From NCBI GenBank assembly GCA_029561105.1, contig JAKQJQ010000195.1:1-63759 (forward strand): a DNA stretch of 63,759 nucleotides. The letters are read 5' to 3'. Shown piece after piece: positions 3,842 through 43,563 of this stretch; the first letter of the stretch is position 1; each line of letters begins with the position of its first letter. Source of the stretch: Bacteroidota bacterium (GTDB taxonomy: Bacteria > Bacteroidota > Bacteroidia > Flavobacteriales > Flavobacteriaceae). The translations under genes were made by a program, and so were the position numbers. Under the pieces are notes generated by a model that did no database searches, had not been told where the DNA came from, and saw only the letters and a list, made by a program, of their open reading frames with translations.

Positions 3842-4843
3842 TTAAACGGTGATGTCTGGATTTTCGGGATTTTCAGGAGTTTCCCGAAAACGTGTTTCGG
3901 GTTTGGGCTGCTCGTCTTTTGGTTTGAGTTTCTTGGGATTGTTGCGTTTCATCATCTCACCCACTTGGTTCGACGCGCTGAACGATGCCACCATATTGTT
4001 AAGCATATCGCTTCCGGCTTGTGGGGAATTGGGCAGCAAAATCAAATTTGAATTCGCGTCAGAGCCAATGGCTTGCAACGTATCGTAATGTTGCGTCACT
4101 ACAATCAGTGCCGAAGCTTCCTGTGAGTTGATGCCCACATTGTTCAAAACCTCTACACTTTCTACCAAACCTCGTGCGATTTCTCGGCGTTGGTCGGCAA
4201 TACCTTGCCCTTGCAGGCGTTTGCTTTCGGCCTCTGCTTTGGCTTTTGCCACGATGCGGATACGGGAACTTTCGGCCTCAAATTCGGCGGCGGTTTTCTC
4301 ACGGTCGGCTGCGTTGATGCGGTTCATGGCGTTTTTCACCTGCAAATCTGGGTCGATGTCGGTCACCAGCGTGTTGATGATGTCATAACCATAGGTCATC
4401 ATCGCTTCGTTTAGTTCGCGCTTGACGGCGATGGCGATATCGTCTTTTCTTTCAAAAACATCATCGAGCTTGAGTTTGGGTACTTCGGCACGCACCACAT
4501 CAAACACATAAGCGGTAATCTGGTCGTGCGGATATTCTAATTTGTAAAAAGCATCGTACACTTTTTCCTGGATGACCTTGAACTGTACCGAGACTTTCAT
4601 CTTCACAAAAACATTATCCTTGGTCTTGGTTTCAATAATCACATCGAGCTGCTGTATTTTGAGGTTGACGCGTCCGGCGATGCGGTCAATGAGCGGAATC
4701 TTGAGCTGGAGACCCGAATTTCGCACGCTGAGGAATTTCCCGAATCGTTCTATAATGACCGATGTCTGTTGCTTTACCGTAAAAAAAGAGGAGAAGAAAA
4801 TGAACAGGGCAAATACGCCGAGGACAATTACTGGTACATTCAT
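3842..4843 (-). CDS. SPFH/Band 7 membrane protein (stomatin/QmcA-like)
   Basis: One N-terminal membrane segment (VPVIVLGVFALFIFFSSFF) is followed by the SPFH domain (TVKQQTSVIIERFGKF ... YGYDIINTLVTDIDPD). An Ala/Glu/Lys-rich coiled coil comes next (AADREKTAAEFEAESSRIRI, then AKAEAESKRLQGQGIADQRR). The 333-residue length and order fit stomatin/HflK-like proteins that form membrane microdomain scaffolds or regulate proteases. The Pro/Lys-rich tail is low complexity. The ATG at 4843 is preferred over a GTG nine codons upstream because it starts directly before the hydrophobic segment. No NfeD partner gene lies next to it. Confidence 0.85.
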   Translation of the reverse strand: MNVPVIVLGVFALFIFFSSFFTVKQQTSVIIERFGKFLSVRNSGLQLKIPLIDRIAGRVNLKIQQLDVIIETKTKDNVFVKMKVSVQFKVIQEKVYDAFYKLEYPHDQITAYVFDVVRAEVPKLKLDDVFERKDDIAIAVKRELNEAMMTYGYDIINTLVTDIDPDLQVKNAMNRINAADREKTAAEFEAESSRIRIVAKAKAEAESKRLQGQGIADQRREIARGLVESVEVLNNVGINSQEASALIVVTQHYDTLQAIGSDANSNLILLPNSPQAGSDMLNNMVASFSASNQVGEMMKRNNPKKLKPKDEQPKPETRFRETPENPENPDITV

Positions 4844-5641: not shown

Positions 5642-7144
5642 TAAAGTGTTAATGGCTTTTTGGATTCTCGAAACCGTTTCGTCCTTACCGATCATTTCGG
5701 CAATGTCAAACAAATGCGGGCCTTTTAACGCGCCTACAAGGCTCAACCTAAATGGCTGCATGACTTTACCCATGCCGATTTCGTTTTGCGCCATCCAATC
5801 CTTCAGGATCGTTTCAATGTTGGCCGACGCGAAATCTTCAATCCCAGAAAGCACTTCGATTACGCGTTGCATCAATTGGGGCGTGTCTTCTTTCCAGTTT
5901 TTGGCAGCTTTTTCATCGTAAGAACTTGGTGCGACAAAGAAGTAATCGGCCAAATCCCAAAATTCAGAAACAAAATGCGCGCGTTCCTTGATTAGTGAAA
6001 CGATGCGTACCAAAGTAGAATAATCCACATCGATGCCTTTCGCGTAAAGGATAGGGGCAAAGGCTTTGGCCAAAGTTTCATCATCTTGTTTCACGAGGTA
6101 TTGGTGGTTGAACCATTTGTTTTTCTCAGGATCGAACTTCGCGCCCGATTTATGTACACGCGACAAATCGAAGGATTGTGATAGTTCGTCGAGCGAGAAA
6201 ATTTCCTTATCGGTGCCATCGTTCCAACCCAATAAGGCGAGGAAGTTCACGACTGCTTCGGGGAAAAATCCGGCTTCACGGTAACCCGATGAAATGCCTT
6301 CGGCGGTTTGCCATTCGAGCGGGAATACGGGAAATCCGAGCTTGTCACCATCGCGTTTGGACAATTTTCCGTTGCCGATGGGTTTGAGGATCAGCGGCAA
6401 ATGTGCAAATTCGGGTGCATCCCAACCAAAAGCGCGGTACAATAAAACGTGCAACGGCATAGACGGCAGCCATTCTTCGCCGCGAATCACGTGCGAGGTT
6501 TCCATCAGATGGTCGTCGACAATGTTGGCCAGATGGTAAGTAGGCATGCCGTCGCTTTTAAAGAGCACTTTGTCATCGAGCAGATTGGTCTCGAATTTTA
6601 CGTCTCCGCGGATGATGTCCTGCAAATGCAAAGTCTCGTTAACCGGCGTTTTGAAACGGATGACAAAATCTTCGCCGTTGGCAATCCTGGTTTGGGTTTC
6701 CTCAGCCGATAGTACCAGAGAATTGTCTAGTTTTTCGCGGTTGTGGTGGTTGTAAATGAAGGTCTTGCCGTGCTCTTCGTGTTGTTTGCGATGCGTGTCG
6801 AGTGCCTCGGCGGTATCAAATGCATAATAGGCATTTCCCGAAGCAATGAGCGCGTCGGCGTATTGTTGGTACATCGCTTTGCGCTCACTTTGTCGGTAAG
6901 GCCCGAATTTTTCATTCTTGCCTACGGTTTCACTTGGCGCAATACCCAACCAATCCAACGCCTCGAAAATGTATTGTTCGGCGCCGGGAACAAAGCGGTT
7001 CTGGTCGGTATCTTCGATCCTGAGATAGAAAACGCCGCCGTGTTTTTTGGCAAACAAATAATTGAACAAAGCGGTACGGACACCACCGATATGTAAAGGC
7101 CCGGTTGGGCTGGGTGCAAAGCGCACACGAACTGGCTTAGACAT
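5639..7144 (-). CDS. gltX: glutamyl-tRNA synthetase
   Basis: This class I synthetase charges tRNA-Glu. The HIGH-class motif is in RFAPSPTGPLHIGGVRTALF (residues 8-27) and the KMSKS-class motif is KLSKRDG near residue 265. The length of 501 residues is normal for bacterial GluRS. The ATG at 7144 directly starts the conserved N-terminal strand MSKPVRVRFAPSP. A perfect minus-strand -7 box lies 17 bp upstream. A separate GlnRS is encoded 4 kb away, so this enzyme may be the discriminating type (inference). Confidence 0.95.
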   Translation of the reverse strand: MSKPVRVRFAPSPTGPLHIGGVRTALFNYLFAKKHGGVFYLRIEDTDQNRFVPGAEQYIFEALDWLGIAPSETVGKNEKFGPYRQSERKAMYQQYADALIASGNAYYAFDTAEALDTHRKQHEEHGKTFIYNHHNREKLDNSLVLSAEETQTRIANGEDFVIRFKTPVNETLHLQDIIRGDVKFETNLLDDKVLFKSDGMPTYHLANIVDDHLMETSHVIRGEEWLPSMPLHVLLYRAFGWDAPEFAHLPLILKPIGNGKLSKRDGDKLGFPVFPLEWQTAEGISSGYREAGFFPEAVVNFLALLGWNDGTDKEIFSLDELSQSFDLSRVHKSGAKFDPEKNKWFNHQYLVKQDDETLAKAFAPILYAKGIDVDYSTLVRIVSLIKERAHFVSEFWDLADYFFVAPSSYDEKAAKNWKEDTPQLMQRVIEVLSGIEDFASANIETILKDWMAQNEIGMGKVMQPFRLSLVGALKGPHLFDIAEMIGKDETVSRIQKAINTL

Positions 7145-7160
7145 TGTCGTAAATTTTTGG

Positions 7161-7171: not shown

Positions 7172-7243
7172 AAAAGGTGTAAGGTGCCGGGTTTTTACAT
7201 AGCGTTTTCCCTTAAAACTTGTACCCTGAACCCTGTACCTAAT
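7172..7243. repeat. inverted-repeat microrepeat element without gene (E1)
   Basis: A left arm AGGTGTAAGGTGCCGGG and a right arm TTGTACCCTGAACCCTGTAC are approximate reverse complements built from the same ACCCTG/CAGGGT unit. The element lies in the divergent gltX/DUF4175-like spacer. Its unit matches the element at 38342-38484. Confidence 0.55.
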
Positions 7244-38341: not shown

Positions 38342-38484
38342 AAAAAGGTTCAGGGTGCAGGGCACAGGGTTAAAATGTTGGCACGCAAGTTACAGAATTC
38401 CAAAACAAAATTCGAAACCTAAACGACCCGAAACGTTAACGTTTTTTATTTCACCCTGCACCTTGTTCCCTGCACCTTGTACCT
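38342..38484. repeat. inverted-repeat microrepeat element without gene (E2)
   Basis: The left arm GGTTCAGGGTGCAGGGCACA and right arm CCCTGCACCTTGTTCCCTGC are approximate reverse complements made of the same ACCCTG unit as E1. About 70 bp between the arms hold no gene. It sits between the MBL start and the sufA promoter. Confidence 0.6.
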
Positions 38485-38532
38485 TTTCGTTATAAAAATG
38501 TTACCCGATGCGACAAAAACCTTTTTATGACT

Positions 38533-38569: not shown

Positions 38570-38899
38570 ATGATCAAAGTATCTGATACGGCCAGCAAGA
38601 AAATTGTCTCCATGATGAGTGAAGACGGCTTTGATGCAGCCAAAGACTATGTGCGGGTTGGTGTAAAAAGCGGCGGTTGTTCAGGCTTGTCGTACGAACT
38701 CAAATTCGACAGGCAACTCTCAGAAAACGACAAGGTTTTTGAAGACAACAATGTAAAGATTGCCGTAGAGAAAAAGAGTTTCCTTTATTTGGCAGGCACC
38801 ATACTCGAGTTTTCGGGCGGGCTCAACGGCAAAGGATTTGTATTCAACAACCCAAATGCGACGCGTACTTGCGGCTGTGGGGAAAGTTTTTCATTATAA
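38570..38899 (+). CDS. sufA: iron-sulfur cluster carrier SufA (IscA/HesB family)
   Basis: The 109-residue A-type carrier has the three conserved Cys in VKSGGCSGLSYEL and TRTCGCGESF. It receives [Fe-S] clusters from SufBCD and passes them to target proteins. It is the first gene of the SUF locus. The stop codon TAA merges with the start of an inverted-repeat element, and sufB begins 97 bp later. Confidence 0.92.
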   Translation: MIKVSDTASKKIVSMMSEDGFDAAKDYVRVGVKSGGCSGLSYELKFDRQLSENDKVFEDNNVKIAVEKKSFLYLAGTILEFSGGLNGKGFVFNNPNATRTCGCGESFSL

Positions 38900-38990
38900 G
38901 TCGAAAGTGAAAAGAGAAAAGTCGAAAGAAGTCGCACGACTTTCTACTTTTGACTTTCCATTTCCCGCTTCTGACTTTCAACTTTAGACT
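38898..38990. repeat. inverted-repeat microrepeat element without gene (E3), sufA/sufB spacer
   Basis: The left arm contains GTCGAAAGTGAAAAGAGAAA and GTCGAAAGAAGTCG. The right arm contains CGACTTTCTACTTTTGACTT and CTGACTTTCAACTTTAGACT. They are reverse-complementary in unit (AGTCGAAAGT). The element fills the spacer from the sufA stop to 6 bp before the sufB ATG. Confidence 0.75.
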
Positions 38991-38996
38991 AAAAAC

Positions 38997-40445
38997 ATGT
39001 CAAAATACACCGAAGACGATTTAAAAGTCGAGCTCGAAAACAAAGAATACGAGTACGGATTTTACACCGATATTGAATCGGATACTTTTCCCGTTGGCCT
39101 CAACGAAGATATTGTACGCGCCATTTCAAAGAAAAAGGAAGAGCCGCAATGGATGACCGATTGGCGCATCGAAGCCTTTCGCGCGTGGCAGGAAATGACC
39201 GAGCCCGAATGGGCCAACGTACATTACGAAAAGCCCGATTTCCAGGCCATTTCGTATTATTCGGCACCGCTCAAAAAAGCCAAATACGAAAGTTTGGACG
39301 AAGTAGATCCTGAGCTTTTAGAAACCTTCAAGAAACTCGGCATTTCCATCGATGAGCAAAAAATGCTTTCGGGCGTAGCCGTAGATATTGTCATGGATTC
39401 GGTTTCGGTGGCCACGACTTTCAAAAAGACACTCGCTGAAAAAGGCATTATTTTCTGTTCGATTTCTGAAGCGATCAAAGAACATCCAGAATTGGTGCAG
39501 AAATACATCGGGTCGGTCGTTCCGCAAAAAGACAACTTTTACGCTGCGCTGAACTCGGCGGTTTTCTCCGACGGTTCGTTCTGCTACATCCCAAAAGGCG
39601 TGCGTTGCCCAATGGAATTGTCCACTTATTTCAGGATCAACCAAGCCGGAACCGGACAATTTGAAAGGACGCTCGTCATTGCCGACGAAGGCAGTTACGT
39701 ATCGTACCTGGAAGGTTGTACCGCACCAAGCCGTGACGAAAACCAATTGCACGCGGCCGTGGTAGAACTCATCGCTCTGGACGATGCCGAAATCAAGTAT
39801 TCTACCGTCCAGAACTGGTTTCCGGGCAACAAAGAAGGCAAGGGCGGCGTGTACAATTTTGTGACCAAGCGCGGACTTTGTGAGAAGAATGCGAAGATTT
39901 CATGGACTCAGGTAGAGACCGGTTCGGCCGTCACCTGGAAATATCCAAGTTGCGTTTTGAAAGGCGACAATTCTGTGGGTGAATTCTATTCGATTGCGGT
40001 AACCAACAATTTCCAGCAAGCCGACACCGGAACCAAGATGATCCACTTGGGTAAAAACACCAAATCGACGATCATTTCCAAAGGAATTTCTGCCGGAAAA
40101 TCTCAAAACTCCTACCGCGGACTCGTCCAGATTTCGCCACGCGCCGAGAACGCCAGAAACTTTTCGCAATGCGATTCGCTTTTAATGGGCAACAATTGCG
40201 GTGCGCATACTTTCCCGTATATCGAGAGCAAGAATCCATCGGCCAAGATTGAGCATGAAGCCACGACGAGTAAAATCGGCGAAGACCAGGTTTTTTATTG
40301 CAACCAGCGCGGCATCCCAACAGAAAAGGCAATCGCTTTGATCGTAAACGGTTTCAGTAAGGACGTACTCAACAAACTCCCGATGGAATTTGCCGTAGAG
40401 GCGCAAAAATTATTAGAAATTTCTTTAGAAGGAAGTGTTGGTTAA
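38997..40445 (+). CDS. sufB: Fe-S cluster scaffold SufB
   Basis: SufB is the scaffold subunit of the SufBC2D complex, where clusters are built. The 482-residue protein has the family core [40 protein letters not shown] and [21 protein letters not shown]. The C-terminal [21 protein letters not shown] carries a conserved Cys. The length is normal. The stop codon is fused to the left arm of an inverted-repeat element that carries a four-helix-bundle gene. Confidence 0.96.
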
Positions 40446-40896
40446 TTTGAAAATAAGATAATTTGAAAATTTGAAAATGGAGCGCAAGGAGAATATCATT
40501 GTACAATTGACTTTTAAATTTGCGCTCGAAATTATTAGCTATTCAGAATTACTCCAAGACCACAAAAAATATGTGATAGCCAATCAATTATTAAAAGCCG
40601 GCACATCCATTGGAGCTAATATAAGAGAAGCTCAAAATGCAGAGAGCAAACAAGATTTTATCCACAAGTTCAAGATAGCCGCCAAAGAAATTGAAGAGAC
40701 GTTTTATTGGTTGGAATTGTGTGAGTTTTCCGAAAATTATCCTTCGGTCAAAACTTTGAATGAACAATTGGAAAATATATCAAGAATCGTAAATAAAATA
40801 ATTATAACATCTAAACACCAATAAATAATTGAATTTTGGACCAAGGAGTGAATCGTCATTTCCAAATTTCCAAATTTCCAAATTTCCAAATCCACA
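40444..40896. mobile_element. inverted-repeat element carrying a four-helix-bundle gene (E4), sufB/sufC spacer
   Basis: The left arm (40444-40479) repeats AATTTGAAAAT. The right arm (40855-40896) repeats TTTCCAAA four times and is its approximate reverse complement. The gene ATG sits at the inner end of the left arm, and a mirror-image CAT starts the right arm. The element exactly fills the gap between the sufB stop and sufC start. No transposase and no target duplication were seen. Confidence 0.6.
40477..40824 (+). CDS. four-helix-bundle protein (23S rRNA intervening-sequence/Avd-like family)
   Basis: The 115-residue product shows the family pattern KFALEIISYSELL, then ANQLLKAGTSIGANIREAQNAESKQDF, then KIAAKEIEETFYWLELC. 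Members of this family occur inside 23S rRNA intervening sequences of some bacteria and resemble Avd of diversity-generating retroelements. They are thought to bind nucleic acid, but no activity is established. The ATG at 40477 lies in the left arm of the element. The gene is AT-rich compared with sufB and sufC, suggesting later arrival. It has no known role in Fe-S assembly. Confidence 0.85.
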   Translation: MERKENIIVQLTFKFALEIISYSELLQDHKKYVIANQLLKAGTSIGANIREAQNAESKQDFIHKFKIAAKEIEETFYWLELCEFSENYPSVKTLNEQLENISRIVNKIIITSKHQ

Positions 40897-41643
40897 ATGT
40901 TACAAATCAATAATTTACACGCGAGAGTAGAAGATAAAGATATTTTAAAAGGCATCAACCTCACGGTCAACGCCGGAGAGGTACACGCAATCATGGGGCC
41001 AAACGGTTCCGGGAAAAGTACACTTTCGGCCGTAATTGCCGGCAATGAGAACTATGAGGTTACCGAGGGCGAAGTGATCCTCGACGGTGAAGACCTCGCA
41101 GACATGGCGCCAGAAGAACGCGCGCACAAAGGCGTGTTCCTATCCTTTCAATATCCGGTAGAAATCCCAGGCGTTTCGGTGACCAACTTTATGAAAACGG
41201 CTATCAATGAAACCCGCAAAGCCAAAGGACTTGAAGAAATGCCGGCCAATGAAATGCTCAAATTGATCCGCGAGAAATCAGAATTGTTAGAAATTGACCG
41301 CAAATTCATGTCGCGCTCGCTCAACGAAGGTTTTTCTGGCGGTGAGAAAAAACGCAACGAGATTTTCCAGATGGCCATGCTCGACCCGAAATTGGCTATC
41401 CTTGATGAAACCGATTCCGGTCTCGATATCGACGCGCTGCGCATCGTGGCCAACGGTGTCAACAAACTCAAAAGCGAGAAGAATGCGGTGATTGTCATCA
41501 CGCACTACCAAAGGCTTCTGGATTATATCGTCCCTGATTTCGTGCACGTTTTATACAACGGAAAAATCGTGAAATCGGGTGGGAAGGAACTCGCTTATGA
41601 ATTGGAGGAAAAGGGATACGATTGGATTAAAGCGGAGAATTAG
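40897..41643 (+). CDS. sufC: Fe-S assembly ATPase SufC
   Basis: SufC is the ABC-type ATPase of SufBC2D that powers scaffold rearrangement. The 248-residue protein has Walker A GPNGSGKSTLS near residue 35 and the signature FSGGEKKRNEI. Walker B is PKLAILDETDSGLDIDAL, followed by the H-loop VIVITHYQRLL. The start ATG directly abuts the right arm of the preceding repeat element. The stop TAG is fused to the next one. Confidence 0.96.
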   Translation: MLQINNLHARVEDKDILKGINLTVNAGEVHAIMGPNGSGKSTLSAVIAGNENYEVTEGEVILDGEDLADMAPEERAHKGVFLSFQYPVEIPGVSVTNFMKTAINETRKAKGLEEMPANEMLKLIREKSELLEIDRKFMSRSLNEGFSGGEKKRNEIFQMAMLDPKLAILDETDSGLDIDALRIVANGVNKLKSEKNAVIVITHYQRLLDYIVPDFVHVLYNGKIVKSGGKELAYELEEKGYDWIKAEN

Positions 41644-42134
41644 TCGAAAGTGAAAAGTCGAAAGTCCAAAGAAAGGGACTTCGCGAATTGATAAGCCATT
41701 TTAAAATTTATAAGCCATGCAGAATTTTACCACTTTCGAGGAGATAATTTCCTGGAAGAAAGCCAGGTCGTTAAATCGGGAAATCTATTTAACAACAGAA
41801 GAAGTTTTTAAAAAAGATTTCGATTTAGCGAGGCAAATCAGGCGGGCATCCGTCTCGATTTCTTCAAATATCGCAGAAGGGTTCGAAAGACATACAGACA
41901 AAGAGTTTATTCATTTTCTCTATGTCGCAAAAGCATCCGCAGGAGAAGTTAGGTCACAATTGTATTTGATTTTTGATTTGAACTACATCCCAAAAGAAAC
42001 GTTAGAAAATTTACTTTTTAAAGTAACCGAAATATCAAAATTATTAGCAGGTTTTATCAAATACCTCGAAACTAAAAAACAGTAACAGTCTCCAAGTTAA
42101 GGTCTTTCGACTTTCGACTTTTGACTTTCGACTC
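41642..42134. mobile_element. inverted-repeat element carrying a second four-helix-bundle gene (E5), sufC/sufD spacer
   Basis: The left arm (from 41642) reads AGTCGAAAGTGAAAAGTCGA. The right arm (42101-42134) reads CTTTCGACTTTCGACTTTTG and further units, its near-exact reverse complement over about 30 bp. The unit is the same as in E3 and unlike E4. The element spans from the sufC stop codon to 5 bp before the sufD ATG. Confidence 0.65.
41717..42085 (+). CDS. four-helix-bundle protein (23S rRNA intervening-sequence/Avd-like family)
   Basis: The 122-residue product has the signature DFDLARQIRRASVSISSNIAEGFER near its middle, then KEFIHFLYVAKASAGEVRSQL and a C-terminal helix ending GFIKYLETKKQ. 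It belongs to the same family as the protein in the sufB/sufC spacer but is clearly diverged, so it is not a simple local duplicate. The nine-base direct repeat ATAAGCCAT occurs twice just before and at the start codon. Function is unknown. Its placement inside an inverted-repeat element is the only clue. Confidence 0.85.
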   Translation: MQNFTTFEEIISWKKARSLNREIYLTTEEVFKKDFDLARQIRRASVSISSNIAEGFERHTDKEFIHFLYVAKASAGEVRSQLYLIFDLNYIPKETLENLLFKVTEISKLLAGFIKYLETKKQ

Positions 42135-42139
42135 AACTA

Positions 42140-43456
42140 ATGGAACTTAAAGAAAAACTCATTTCGTCTTTCATGGCCTTCGAAGAAAGCGTCGACGTTC
42201 ACGCCGATTTGCACAACGCGCGCACCGAAGCCATCAAAAACTTCGAAGCCAAAGGCTTTCCCACCAAAAAGGAGGAAGCCTGGAAGTACACATCGCTCAA
42301 CTCGATTTTGAAGAACGATTTCAGCGTATTCCCCAAAGTAGAAAACGCCATAGAATTTGCCGATGTCAAGAAATATTTCCTGCATGAAATAGACACGTAC
42401 AAAGTCATTTTCATCGACGGGAAATTCAGTTCGTTCTTGTCTTCGACAACCCACGACGGCCTCGACGTTTGCTTGATGTCGTCGGCGCTCACCAAGCCCA
42501 AATACAAAATGGTCATTGATGAGTATTTCAACAAGATCGCGAGCAAAGAAGAAAGCTTGACAACGTTGAATACGGCGTTTTCTCTCGAAGGCGCTTACAT
42601 CAACATCCCAAAAAGCAAGGTGGTTGAAAAACCCATCGAGATCATCAATTTTTCTACGGGAACCGAGGCCGCACTTTTGGTACAGCCGCGAAATCTCATT
42701 ATTGTCAATGAAAACGCGCATGTACAGATTATAGAAAGGCACCAGAGCCTCAATGAAAACCCGGTGCTGACCAACTCGGTGACCGAGATTTTTGCCCGCA
42801 AACGCGCCATCGTAGACTATTATAAAATCCAGAATGACAACCTCGAAGCCTCGCTGGTAGACAACACTTACATCGCGCAGAAAGAGCAGAGTAACGTTTC
42901 TGTTCACACGTTTTCGTTTGGCGGAAACATCACGCGCAACAACCTCAATTTTTACCACCAAGGCGAACACATAGACAGCACCTTAAAAGGCATCACAATT
43001 ATAGAAGGCAAGCAGCACGTAGACCACCACACCTTGGTGCAACACGCCACGCCAAATTGCGAAAGCCACCAGAACTACAAGGGTATTTTTGGCGACCGCT
43101 CTACCGGGGTTTTCAACGGCAAAATCTTTGTGGAGAAAGAAGCGCAGAAAACCGATGCTTTCCAACAAAACAACAACATATTGCTTAGTGACAAAGCCAC
43201 AATCAACGCCAAGCCGCAACTGGAGATTTTCGCCGACGACGTGAAATGCTCGCACGGCTGCACCATTGGCCAGCTCGATGAAAAGGCCATGTTTTACATG
43301 CAATCTCGCGGGATTCCGCAGAAAGAAGCCAAGGCTTTGCTCATGTACGCGTTCTCGAACGAAGTGATAGAAAGCATTAAGATTCCTGAATTGAAGAAGC
43401 GCATTACGAAGATTATTGCGACGAAATTGGGAGTGAATATGGGATTCGATCTGTAG
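42140..43456 (+). CDS. sufD: Fe-S assembly protein SufD
   Basis: SufD is the SufB paralogue in the SufBC2D scaffold complex and is needed for iron entry. The 438-residue protein has the N-terminal helix region with FPTKKEEAWKYTSLNSI. The core beta-helix includes NNLNFYHQGEHIDSTLKGIT and VQHATPNCESHQNYKGIFGD. The C-terminal signature is DVKCSHGCTIGQLDEKAMFYM. The length is normal. It abuts the repeat element upstream. Its stop codon opens a run of six mini-hairpins. Confidence 0.95.
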   Translation: MELKEKLISSFMAFEESVDVHADLHNARTEAIKNFEAKGFPTKKEEAWKYTSLNSILKNDFSVFPKVENAIEFADVKKYFLHEIDTYKVIFIDGKFSSFLSSTTHDGLDVCLMSSALTKPKYKMVIDEYFNKIASKEESLTTLNTAFSLEGAYINIPKSKVVEKPIEIINFSTGTEAALLVQPRNLIIVNENAHVQIIERHQSLNENPVLTNSVTEIFARKRAIVDYYKIQNDNLEASLVDNTYIAQKEQSNVSVHTFSFGGNITRNNLNFYHQGEHIDSTLKGITIIEGKQHVDHHTLVQHATPNCESHQNYKGIFGDRSTGVFNGKIFVEKEAQKTDAFQQNNNILLSDKATINAKPQLEIFADDVKCSHGCTIGQLDEKAMFYMQSRGIPQKEAKALLMYAFSNEVIESIKIPELKKRITKIIATKLGVNMGFDL

Positions 43457-43563
43457 ACACGCTTCGCTTTGGACACGCCCTGCGGGCTTTAGACACGGCT
43501 GCGCCTTTAGAGACGCCCATCGGGCTATGGAGACGCTTCGCTTTAGAAACGCCTGCGGCTTCA
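43456..43563 (+). repeat. array of six 16-20 bp mini-hairpin repeats
   Basis: Units start at 43456, 43472, 43492, 43510, 43530 and 43546. Each begins GA[C/G/A]ACG. The following core is a small palindrome whose stem changes together on both sides: GCCC-TGC-GGGC, GGC-TGC-GCC, GCCC-ATC-GGGC, GCC-TGC-GGC, and GC-TTC-GC in units 1 and 5. The array starts on the last base of the sufD stop codon. Confidence 0.7.

Follow-up and report, generated by a model that had tools for sequence, protein, structure and literature searches.

PF05635 genes between inverted microrepeat arms in the suf operon of a flavobacterium, and a candidate two-part element related to 23S rRNA intervening sequences

Heptamer arrays have been known for decades in cyanobacteria (STRR), Xanthomonas and sulfur bacteria. 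Among the systems described so far, the 23S rRNA intervening sequence (IVS) of Coxiella burnetii has a 28-bp terminal stem and is excised by RNase III, and GACAGAT heptamers stand before its open reading frame (ORF) in two or three sets according to the strain (accessible part of PMC4990558). In the REPIN/RAYT systems of repetitive extragenic palindromic (REP) sequences, one repeat-flanked gene goes with many gene-less inverted doublets cognate to it, each gene having its own repeat class (PMC3116915, in part). Convergent heptamer pairs have been reported for Xanthomonas in 70 and 75 cases (PMC4692102, in part). A mobile repeat-binding protein has been suggested as a possibility (accessible text of PMC4679880), and the resemblance of the protein family PF05635 to Avd of diversity-generating retroelements (DGRs) has been remarked in PMC10053308 (in part). 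The accessible portions of PMC4692102 and PMC4679880 make no link between heptamer repeats and PF05635, and in the open-licence literature we found no paper tying PF05635 to heptamer arms, subscription papers and preprints being outside the search. Here we describe two elements, E4 and E5, in each of which a PF05635 gene lies between inverted arms of a tandem short unit within the suf operon of a member of the Flavobacteriaceae. They are found in a stretch of 63,759 nt (GenBank contig JAKQJQ010000195.1 of assembly GCA_029561105.1), called the window below, which is contig C104 of a 3.7-Mb genome in 416 contigs, 97.8% complete.

In this operon the sufB/sufC spacer lies between the end of sufB at 40445 and the start of sufC at 40897, and the sufC/sufD spacer between the end of sufC at 41643 and the start of sufD at 42140. 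An original prediction, made from the letters of the window alone, had described both spacers as running from stop codon to next start as left arm, small gene and right arm, and the coordinates bear this out over their entire length:

40444–40479, plus strand: left arm of E4, made of AATTTGAA 8-mers in tandem; the start codon ATG of the gene (40477–40479) lies within it.
40477–40824, plus strand: E4 gene, encoding a PF05635/TIGR02436 four-helix-bundle protein of a divergent subfamily.
About 40857–40893, plus strand: right arm of E4, made of ATTTCCAA 8-mers in tandem and in inverted orientation to the left arm; CAT stands at its opening.
41642–41672, plus strand: E5 left arm, tandem AGTCGAA 7-mers, whose G-rich strand points to the gene; it overlaps the sufC stop codon.
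41717–42085, plus strand: E5 gene, encoding a PF05635/TIGR02436 four-helix-bundle protein of 122 aa.
42103–42133, plus strand: E5 right arm, the reverse complement of the E5 left arm (94%).

The ATG of E4 inside its left arm and the CAT that opens its right arm are both as predicted; the ATG of E5 lies 44 nt inward of the left arm, outside the arm itself. The arms of E5 are 31 nt each, complementary at 94% and separated by 430 nt. Tandem Repeats Finder reports period 8 for E4 (40444–40478 and 40858–40891), and for E5 period 14, that is 2x7 (41642–41671), and period 7 (42104–42133). We measured the arms by an arm score, the complementarity between the 150 nt before and the 150 nt after the gene. 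The score of E5, 27, was reached by none of 2000 dinucleotide shuffles of both flanks, and that of E4, 21, by 2 of 2000 shuffles of the flanks and by none of 2000 with the spacer only. The claim of inverted tandem-unit arms therefore stands for both elements, with less force for E4, whose arms are shorter and weaker and whose RNA fold is not clearly above shuffles. In the predicted RNA of E5 the arms pair as a long stem (~30 bp) around the gene, with z −5.4 relative to shuffles.

Both genes are members of PF05635, with profile scores of 78 bits for E4 (its protein being translated from the second codon for this search) and 119 bits for E5 against a cut-off of 33.8; the TIGR02436 profile gives 89.5 and 120.9 against a cut-off of 24, and at E ≤ 0.001 the only other match of the two proteins is a weak, below-cut-off one to Laminin_I. 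The structure model of E5 is a four-helix bundle (pLDDT 95.8), with 2GSC (Z 20.1) and 2RLD (Z 18.2) as its nearest structural neighbours; Avd (4DWL) follows, for which the comparison yields Z 15.0 and a root-mean-square deviation of 1.7 over 109 residues at 13% identity. It had been stated in the original prediction that the family occurs in 23S rRNA IVS and is similar to Avd, with which the Coxiella element (PMC4990558, in part) and this structure comparison agree. To judge from a median ratio of nonsynonymous to synonymous substitution rates (dN/dS) of 0.075 over 84 pairs, the protein is maintained by strong purifying selection. Structures have been solved for PF05635/TIGR02436 and, to our knowledge, its function is not known. 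The family is present in 99 of 101 sampled genomes of the genus to which this genome belongs.

In comparison with the described systems, E4 and E5 are intergenic relatives of the 23S IVS (S23/IVP). What they have in common with it is the protein family, complementary ends that can form a stem around the gene, clear in E5 and weaker in E4, and heptamers of variable copy number before the gene; however, they are located between suf genes and not inside an rRNA gene, and copies of their arms without the gene are dispersed in the genome, neither of which is described for the Coxiella IVS in the accessible part of PMC4990558. They work like RAYT/REPIN but are not members of that class, since their protein is a four-helix bundle without known catalysis rather than a Y1 (HUH) transposase and their repeat is a tandem 7-8-mer array. 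REPINs offer the closest logic, and the comparison with REP elements and RAYT already drawn in the original prediction holds in anatomy, since gene-less arrays of matching unit are dispersed. Avd (PDB 4DWL, 8UB7) is alike in fold, but its sequence identity is low, many genomes have a PF05635 gene without a match to RVT_1, and the neighbours of E4 and E5 are suf genes, not a DGR reverse transcriptase. The heptamers of Xanthomonas, Nostoc and Beggiatoaceae resemble the arms in being G-rich or of fixed polarity, and intergenic (accessible parts of PMC4692102 and PMC4679880). A PF05635 protein, XCC0516 (2GSC), is also present in Xanthomonas campestris, and GGGAATC is a published heptamer of Xanthomonas.

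The architecture is not confined to the suf operon. This genome has six PF05635 genes, and all six have inverted microrepeat arms, made of six different units and scoring 17, 18, 25, 28, 31 and 34 when the bases of the gene itself are excluded. For the family at large, 203 of 205 genes were scored (two had insufficient flank): 122 from the genus and 81 from 80 loci across phyla, the latter being the best 80 of at least 507 confirmed protein-motif matches, picked by protein similarity. At a threshold of ≥18, arms are found for 86 of the 122 genus genes and 49 of the 81 genes from many phyla, compared with 269/3019 and 42/2000 mismatched flank pairs, respectively, and 4/302 control ORFs; the genus cross-pair rate is high partly because related elements have units in common. 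Of the 135 elements that score, 125 have a G-rich and 4 a C-rich upstream arm, with 6 ties. Clear periodicity was detected in 148 of 270 arms, the period being 7, 8 or a small multiple of these in 132, and in 1 of 270 after shuffling. The original prediction had named armless family members, or non-repetitive flanks at the suf sites of all relatives, as what would tell against it; both were looked for, and it was not refuted, arms being common family-wide.

The unit appears to travel with the gene. When the comparison is restricted to sites with non-homologous outer flanks, mean arm similarity is ~0.23 at protein identity below 50% and 0.45-0.48 above 60% (76 and 13 pairs), and a Mantel test of arm against protein similarity gave 1 of 500 permutations. 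A GTTGATGG unit is common to an Aequorivita locus and two genomes of this genus, a GGACTGAG unit to Thermodesulfovibrionales and deltaproteobacterial loci, and at sufC/sufD two protein clades go with two unit families, GTTTCAGG versus AGTC.AAAG, the latter being that of the E5 clade. In these comparisons similar proteins tend toward the same unit at unrelated sites, so that gene and arms behave as a single heritable unit.

Gaps between conserved genes were compared among relatives. For sufC/sufD this was done in 25 genomes (G000-G024) of the genus, where the gap holds a full element in seven, a gene-less hairpin above shuffles in nine (at most 2 of 200 shuffles reach them), only 1-3 nt in four and neither in three, and two further hairpins (L090, L095) were recognised by eye only and are not above shuffles. 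In the sufB/sufC gap, decayed remnants with E4-like arms occur in L100, L101 and L110, and a different full element in L109. Two relatives have a bare nuoF/nuoG gap of 18 nt; in this genome that gap carries a gene-less hairpin made of E5's unit, and in six other genomes it holds a full E5-type element whose arm provides a new nuoF stop codon. In genome G070, two gaps of a single suf operon are each occupied by an E5-type gene; the two are identical at 72/118 residues, and one of them has an internal stop. As to the proposal that gene plus arms form a mobile unit inserting in intergenic gaps, a heritable unit and near-empty gaps in relatives are on record; the movement itself we infer.

The sufB/sufC gap is also an insertion hot spot in the genus (L089-L091, L094, L096, L098, L099, L103, L104, L108). 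Judged by eye, several relatives have there two short reading frames resembling a toxin-antitoxin-type pair, and a flavodoxin-like gene lies in the gap of L103 and at the far end of L089 and L091.

Arrays without a gene are dispersed, and their units match the genes resident in the genome. E5's unit has 182 matches (≤3 mismatches) in this genome, compared with 2 for the reversed pattern, and among 100 matches listed there are 36 sites, E5 itself being one of them. For the unit of L003, another PF05635 gene of this genome, 113 matches were counted versus 0 in the reversed control, and none of 100 other genomes has more than 23. GTTTCA, a frequent unit in other species, is not matched in this genome, which has no gene of that type. 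Across the 101 genomes, presence of an E5-type gene (22 genomes) is associated with AAGTC arrays (median 13.5 vs 1.0, P 2.4e-6), and no association is seen with GTTTCA arrays (P 0.28). For the GTTTCA-armed type (11 genomes) the association is with GTTTCA arrays (median 143 vs 2, P 8.8e-6), and none is seen with AAGTC arrays (P 0.098). With six hits per gene subtracted to allow for its own arms, and within genome-size strata, P is 0.005 for E5-type genes with AAGTC and 1e-4 for GTTTCA. In 18 inspected loci with E5's unit in this genome, eight close opposite-strand pairs besides E5 are convergent, and some arrays are single, without an inverted partner. The polarity of gene-less hairpins is 38:4 with 3 ties (n=45), a biased count, because many of these loci were chosen by the AGTC pattern and some are gene arms. 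Apart from these, a long AGGGTTA heptamer array was met at G057:C1:4940498-4940727 as a mismatched match to another pattern.

As far as comparison of sequences can establish it, then, the architecture extends over many phyla with fixed polarity, joint inheritance of gene and unit, and intergenic position. A given gap may be near-empty in one relative, gene-less in another and full in a third, and many dispersed arrays bear the units of resident genes.

Several further arrays in the window had been overlooked in the original prediction:

38886–38996, no strand: gene-less convergent hairpin of E5's unit (AGTCGAAAG) in the iscA/sufB gap; RNA fold z −2.0.
38343–38487, no strand: gene-less convergent hairpin of unit GGTGCAG, which is also that of L003, a PF05635 gene elsewhere in this genome; RNA fold z −5.0.
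About 7174–7240, no strand: small gene-less convergent pair, GGTGTAAGGTGCCGGGT / ACCCTGAACCCTGTACC, called by eye.
43454–43553, no strand: array after sufD of ~18-20-nt units, each with a small palindrome, resembling the arms of PF05635 gene L002.

Longer units (~18-22 nt), in look closer to REP sequences, occur in the last of these arrays and in the arms of L002 and L005, and those of L002 contain a small palindrome. At 282-540 of the window a 78-nt unit stands in tandem in 3.3 copies, with an inverted repeat inside.

Relatives on plasmids were also collected. The segment of XCC0516 is matched by 25 records, of which 10 were scored; three (L342, L343, L347) have strong arms, and two of the three are on one common plasmid backbone and are therefore uninformative on movement. 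A phage collection gave no match to E5. In the cyanobacterial plasmids L344, L345, L346, L350 and L351, a common left array of CAGAAGTCAGGAGTCAGAAT type lies directly before the four-helix gene without a scoring inverted partner. In plasmid pPg_01 of Pseudanabaena galeata (L349, 2483-2842), a four-helix-bundle gene sits in the cas6/cas4 gap of a type I-D cas operon, accompanied by long direct AAAGCTA arrays. In L007 (Polaribacter), two PF05635-type genes, at 4040-4369 and 6783-7157, are less than 3 kb apart.

The explanation that we favour, and regard as probable while keeping considerable reserve, is that E4 and E5 are examples of a widespread two-part element, an intergenic relative of the 23S rRNA IVS with REPIN-like gene-less satellites. 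It consists of a gene for a non-enzymatic four-helix bundle, enclosed by two inverted arms in which a 7- or 8-nt unit is repeated in tandem, and in each arm the G-rich strand runs toward the gene. RNase III may excise the stem from the operon transcript, as in the 23S IVS, so that the neighbours would stay translatable. The ring-forming, Avd-like protein may recognise its own unit, either as hairpin or as single strand, and would then aid the copying of arm hairpins, with or without the gene, into other intergenic gaps, the chemistry of copying probably being done by host replication or repair enzymes. Gene-less copies would be non-autonomous satellites, some of them perhaps produced by decay of the gene in place. 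Mobility of the element and recognition of the arms by the protein are the inferred parts of this scheme.

A number of observations weigh against this account. The RNA fold of E4 (z −1.3) is not significant relative to shuffles. In the family survey, 36/122 genus and 32/81 multi-phylum genes fall below the arm threshold, some scoring loci (L163, L175, L195) are coding-sequence alignments and not microrepeats, 7 of the 10 scored plasmid-borne relatives reach 12 or less, and the L349 arrays are in direct, not inverted, orientation. The gene-array test over 101 genomes ignores phylogeny, with the P value for the E5 type falling to 0.005 after subtraction, and some genomes, G064, G072 and G092 among them, have many GTTTCA arrays and no GTTTCA-armed gene of the tested type. 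In the between-species comparisons neither a target-site duplication nor strain-level insertion polymorphism was seen. Strand agreement of the genus genes is 112:1 with the upstream and 116:4 with the downstream neighbour, compared with 20:5 for other adjacent ORF pairs, and in other phyla the ratios are 66:8 and 55:21, the baseline there being 212:76, with no downstream excess, so that co-directionality above ordinary gene order is clear only within the genus. We know, finally, of no catalytic domain in a PF05635 protein. A location within rRNA was considered as the cause of armless genes and rejected, no large-subunit rRNA match being found in 20 low-scoring loci.

Part of this evidence could be read in another way, by taking the element for an RNA-processing or regulatory cassette: a long-resident operon gene whose arms act in the mRNA as a signal for RNase III or for stability, whose protein binds these and similar hairpins and tunes expression, and whose arrays are sized by slippage, the dispersed ones being further binding sites rather than mobile copies. 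The strong purifying selection, the strand agreement in the genus and the predicted stem of E5 are all in keeping with such a cassette, and a protein binding TAACTGA heptamers, its identity unknown, was floated by the authors of PMC4679880 (accessible part). We think it unlikely, if deserving of serious attention, as conserved gaps are near-empty, full or occupied by a different unit among relatives, from which it follows that no operon needs the element; moreover, unrelated operons house the same gene type, and unit and polarity travel with the gene. Alternatively, the repeats may spread by themselves through host processes such as template switching, gene conversion or break repair, the gene being a hitchhiker between arrays. 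This would suit the single arrays without inverted partner, the arrays in genomes without the tested gene type and a protein for which no catalytic activity is known; against it stand the unit-specific pairing of genes and arrays across 101 genomes and the fact that two of this genome's gene units are dispersed in it whereas a unit common elsewhere is absent, and we consider it improbable.

Two further possibilities invoke an enzyme. An element mobilised by a reverse transcriptase of the host, in which the protein would play the part of DGR Avd, draws on the Avd fold and on the resemblance remarked in PMC10053308 (in part), and is very improbable in our judgement: 52 of 101 genus genomes are without a match to RVT_1 and only two are without PF05635, so that at least 50 have PF05635 without RVT_1, and genome G008 has 302 GTTTCA array hits and no RVT_1 match. 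The two RVT_1 matches of this genome are on contig C22, away from E4 and E5. To a system of REP/RAYT or IS200/IS605 type, in which a Y1 transposase moves the arms in trans, we give practically no credence in spite of the like anatomy, a gene between inverted repeats and dispersed doublets (PMC3116915, in part), for this genome has no match to PF01797 at its stated completeness, and the proteins of E4 and E5 have no match besides PF05635 and the weak Laminin_I one. Reverse transcriptase and Y1 transposase were thus rejected as general driver, neither co-occurring as required, and for this reason the model of a unit-recognising protein that relies on host enzymes is favoured.

A broader reading may be advanced tentatively, and we would rather doubt than affirm it. 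It supposes that a ring-forming, non-catalytic four-helix bundle, reading a tandem heptamer or octamer, drives mobile DNA of a class of its own. Every gene would have its own unit as inverted arms, the protein would disperse gene-less hairpins of that unit through intergenic gaps by means of host enzymes, and the unit would drift with the protein; the 23S IVS would be members that landed in rRNA, and the heptamers of cyanobacteria, Xanthomonas and sulfur bacteria would be satellites. In every pair both G-rich strands point inward, which is the geometry to be expected if the 3' ends on both sides of a break had been extended with repeats, so that unit addition at breaks is a possible mode of copying.

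PF05635 is very common, and the family-wide, unit-specific tie of its genes to inverted heptamer arms offers a direct hypothesis for the ligand of the protein. It also offers one origin for two puzzles, the intervening sequences of rRNA and the dispersed heptamer repeats. If movement is confirmed, the elements described here would spread repeats with no transposase, recombinase or reverse transcriptase that can be recognised.

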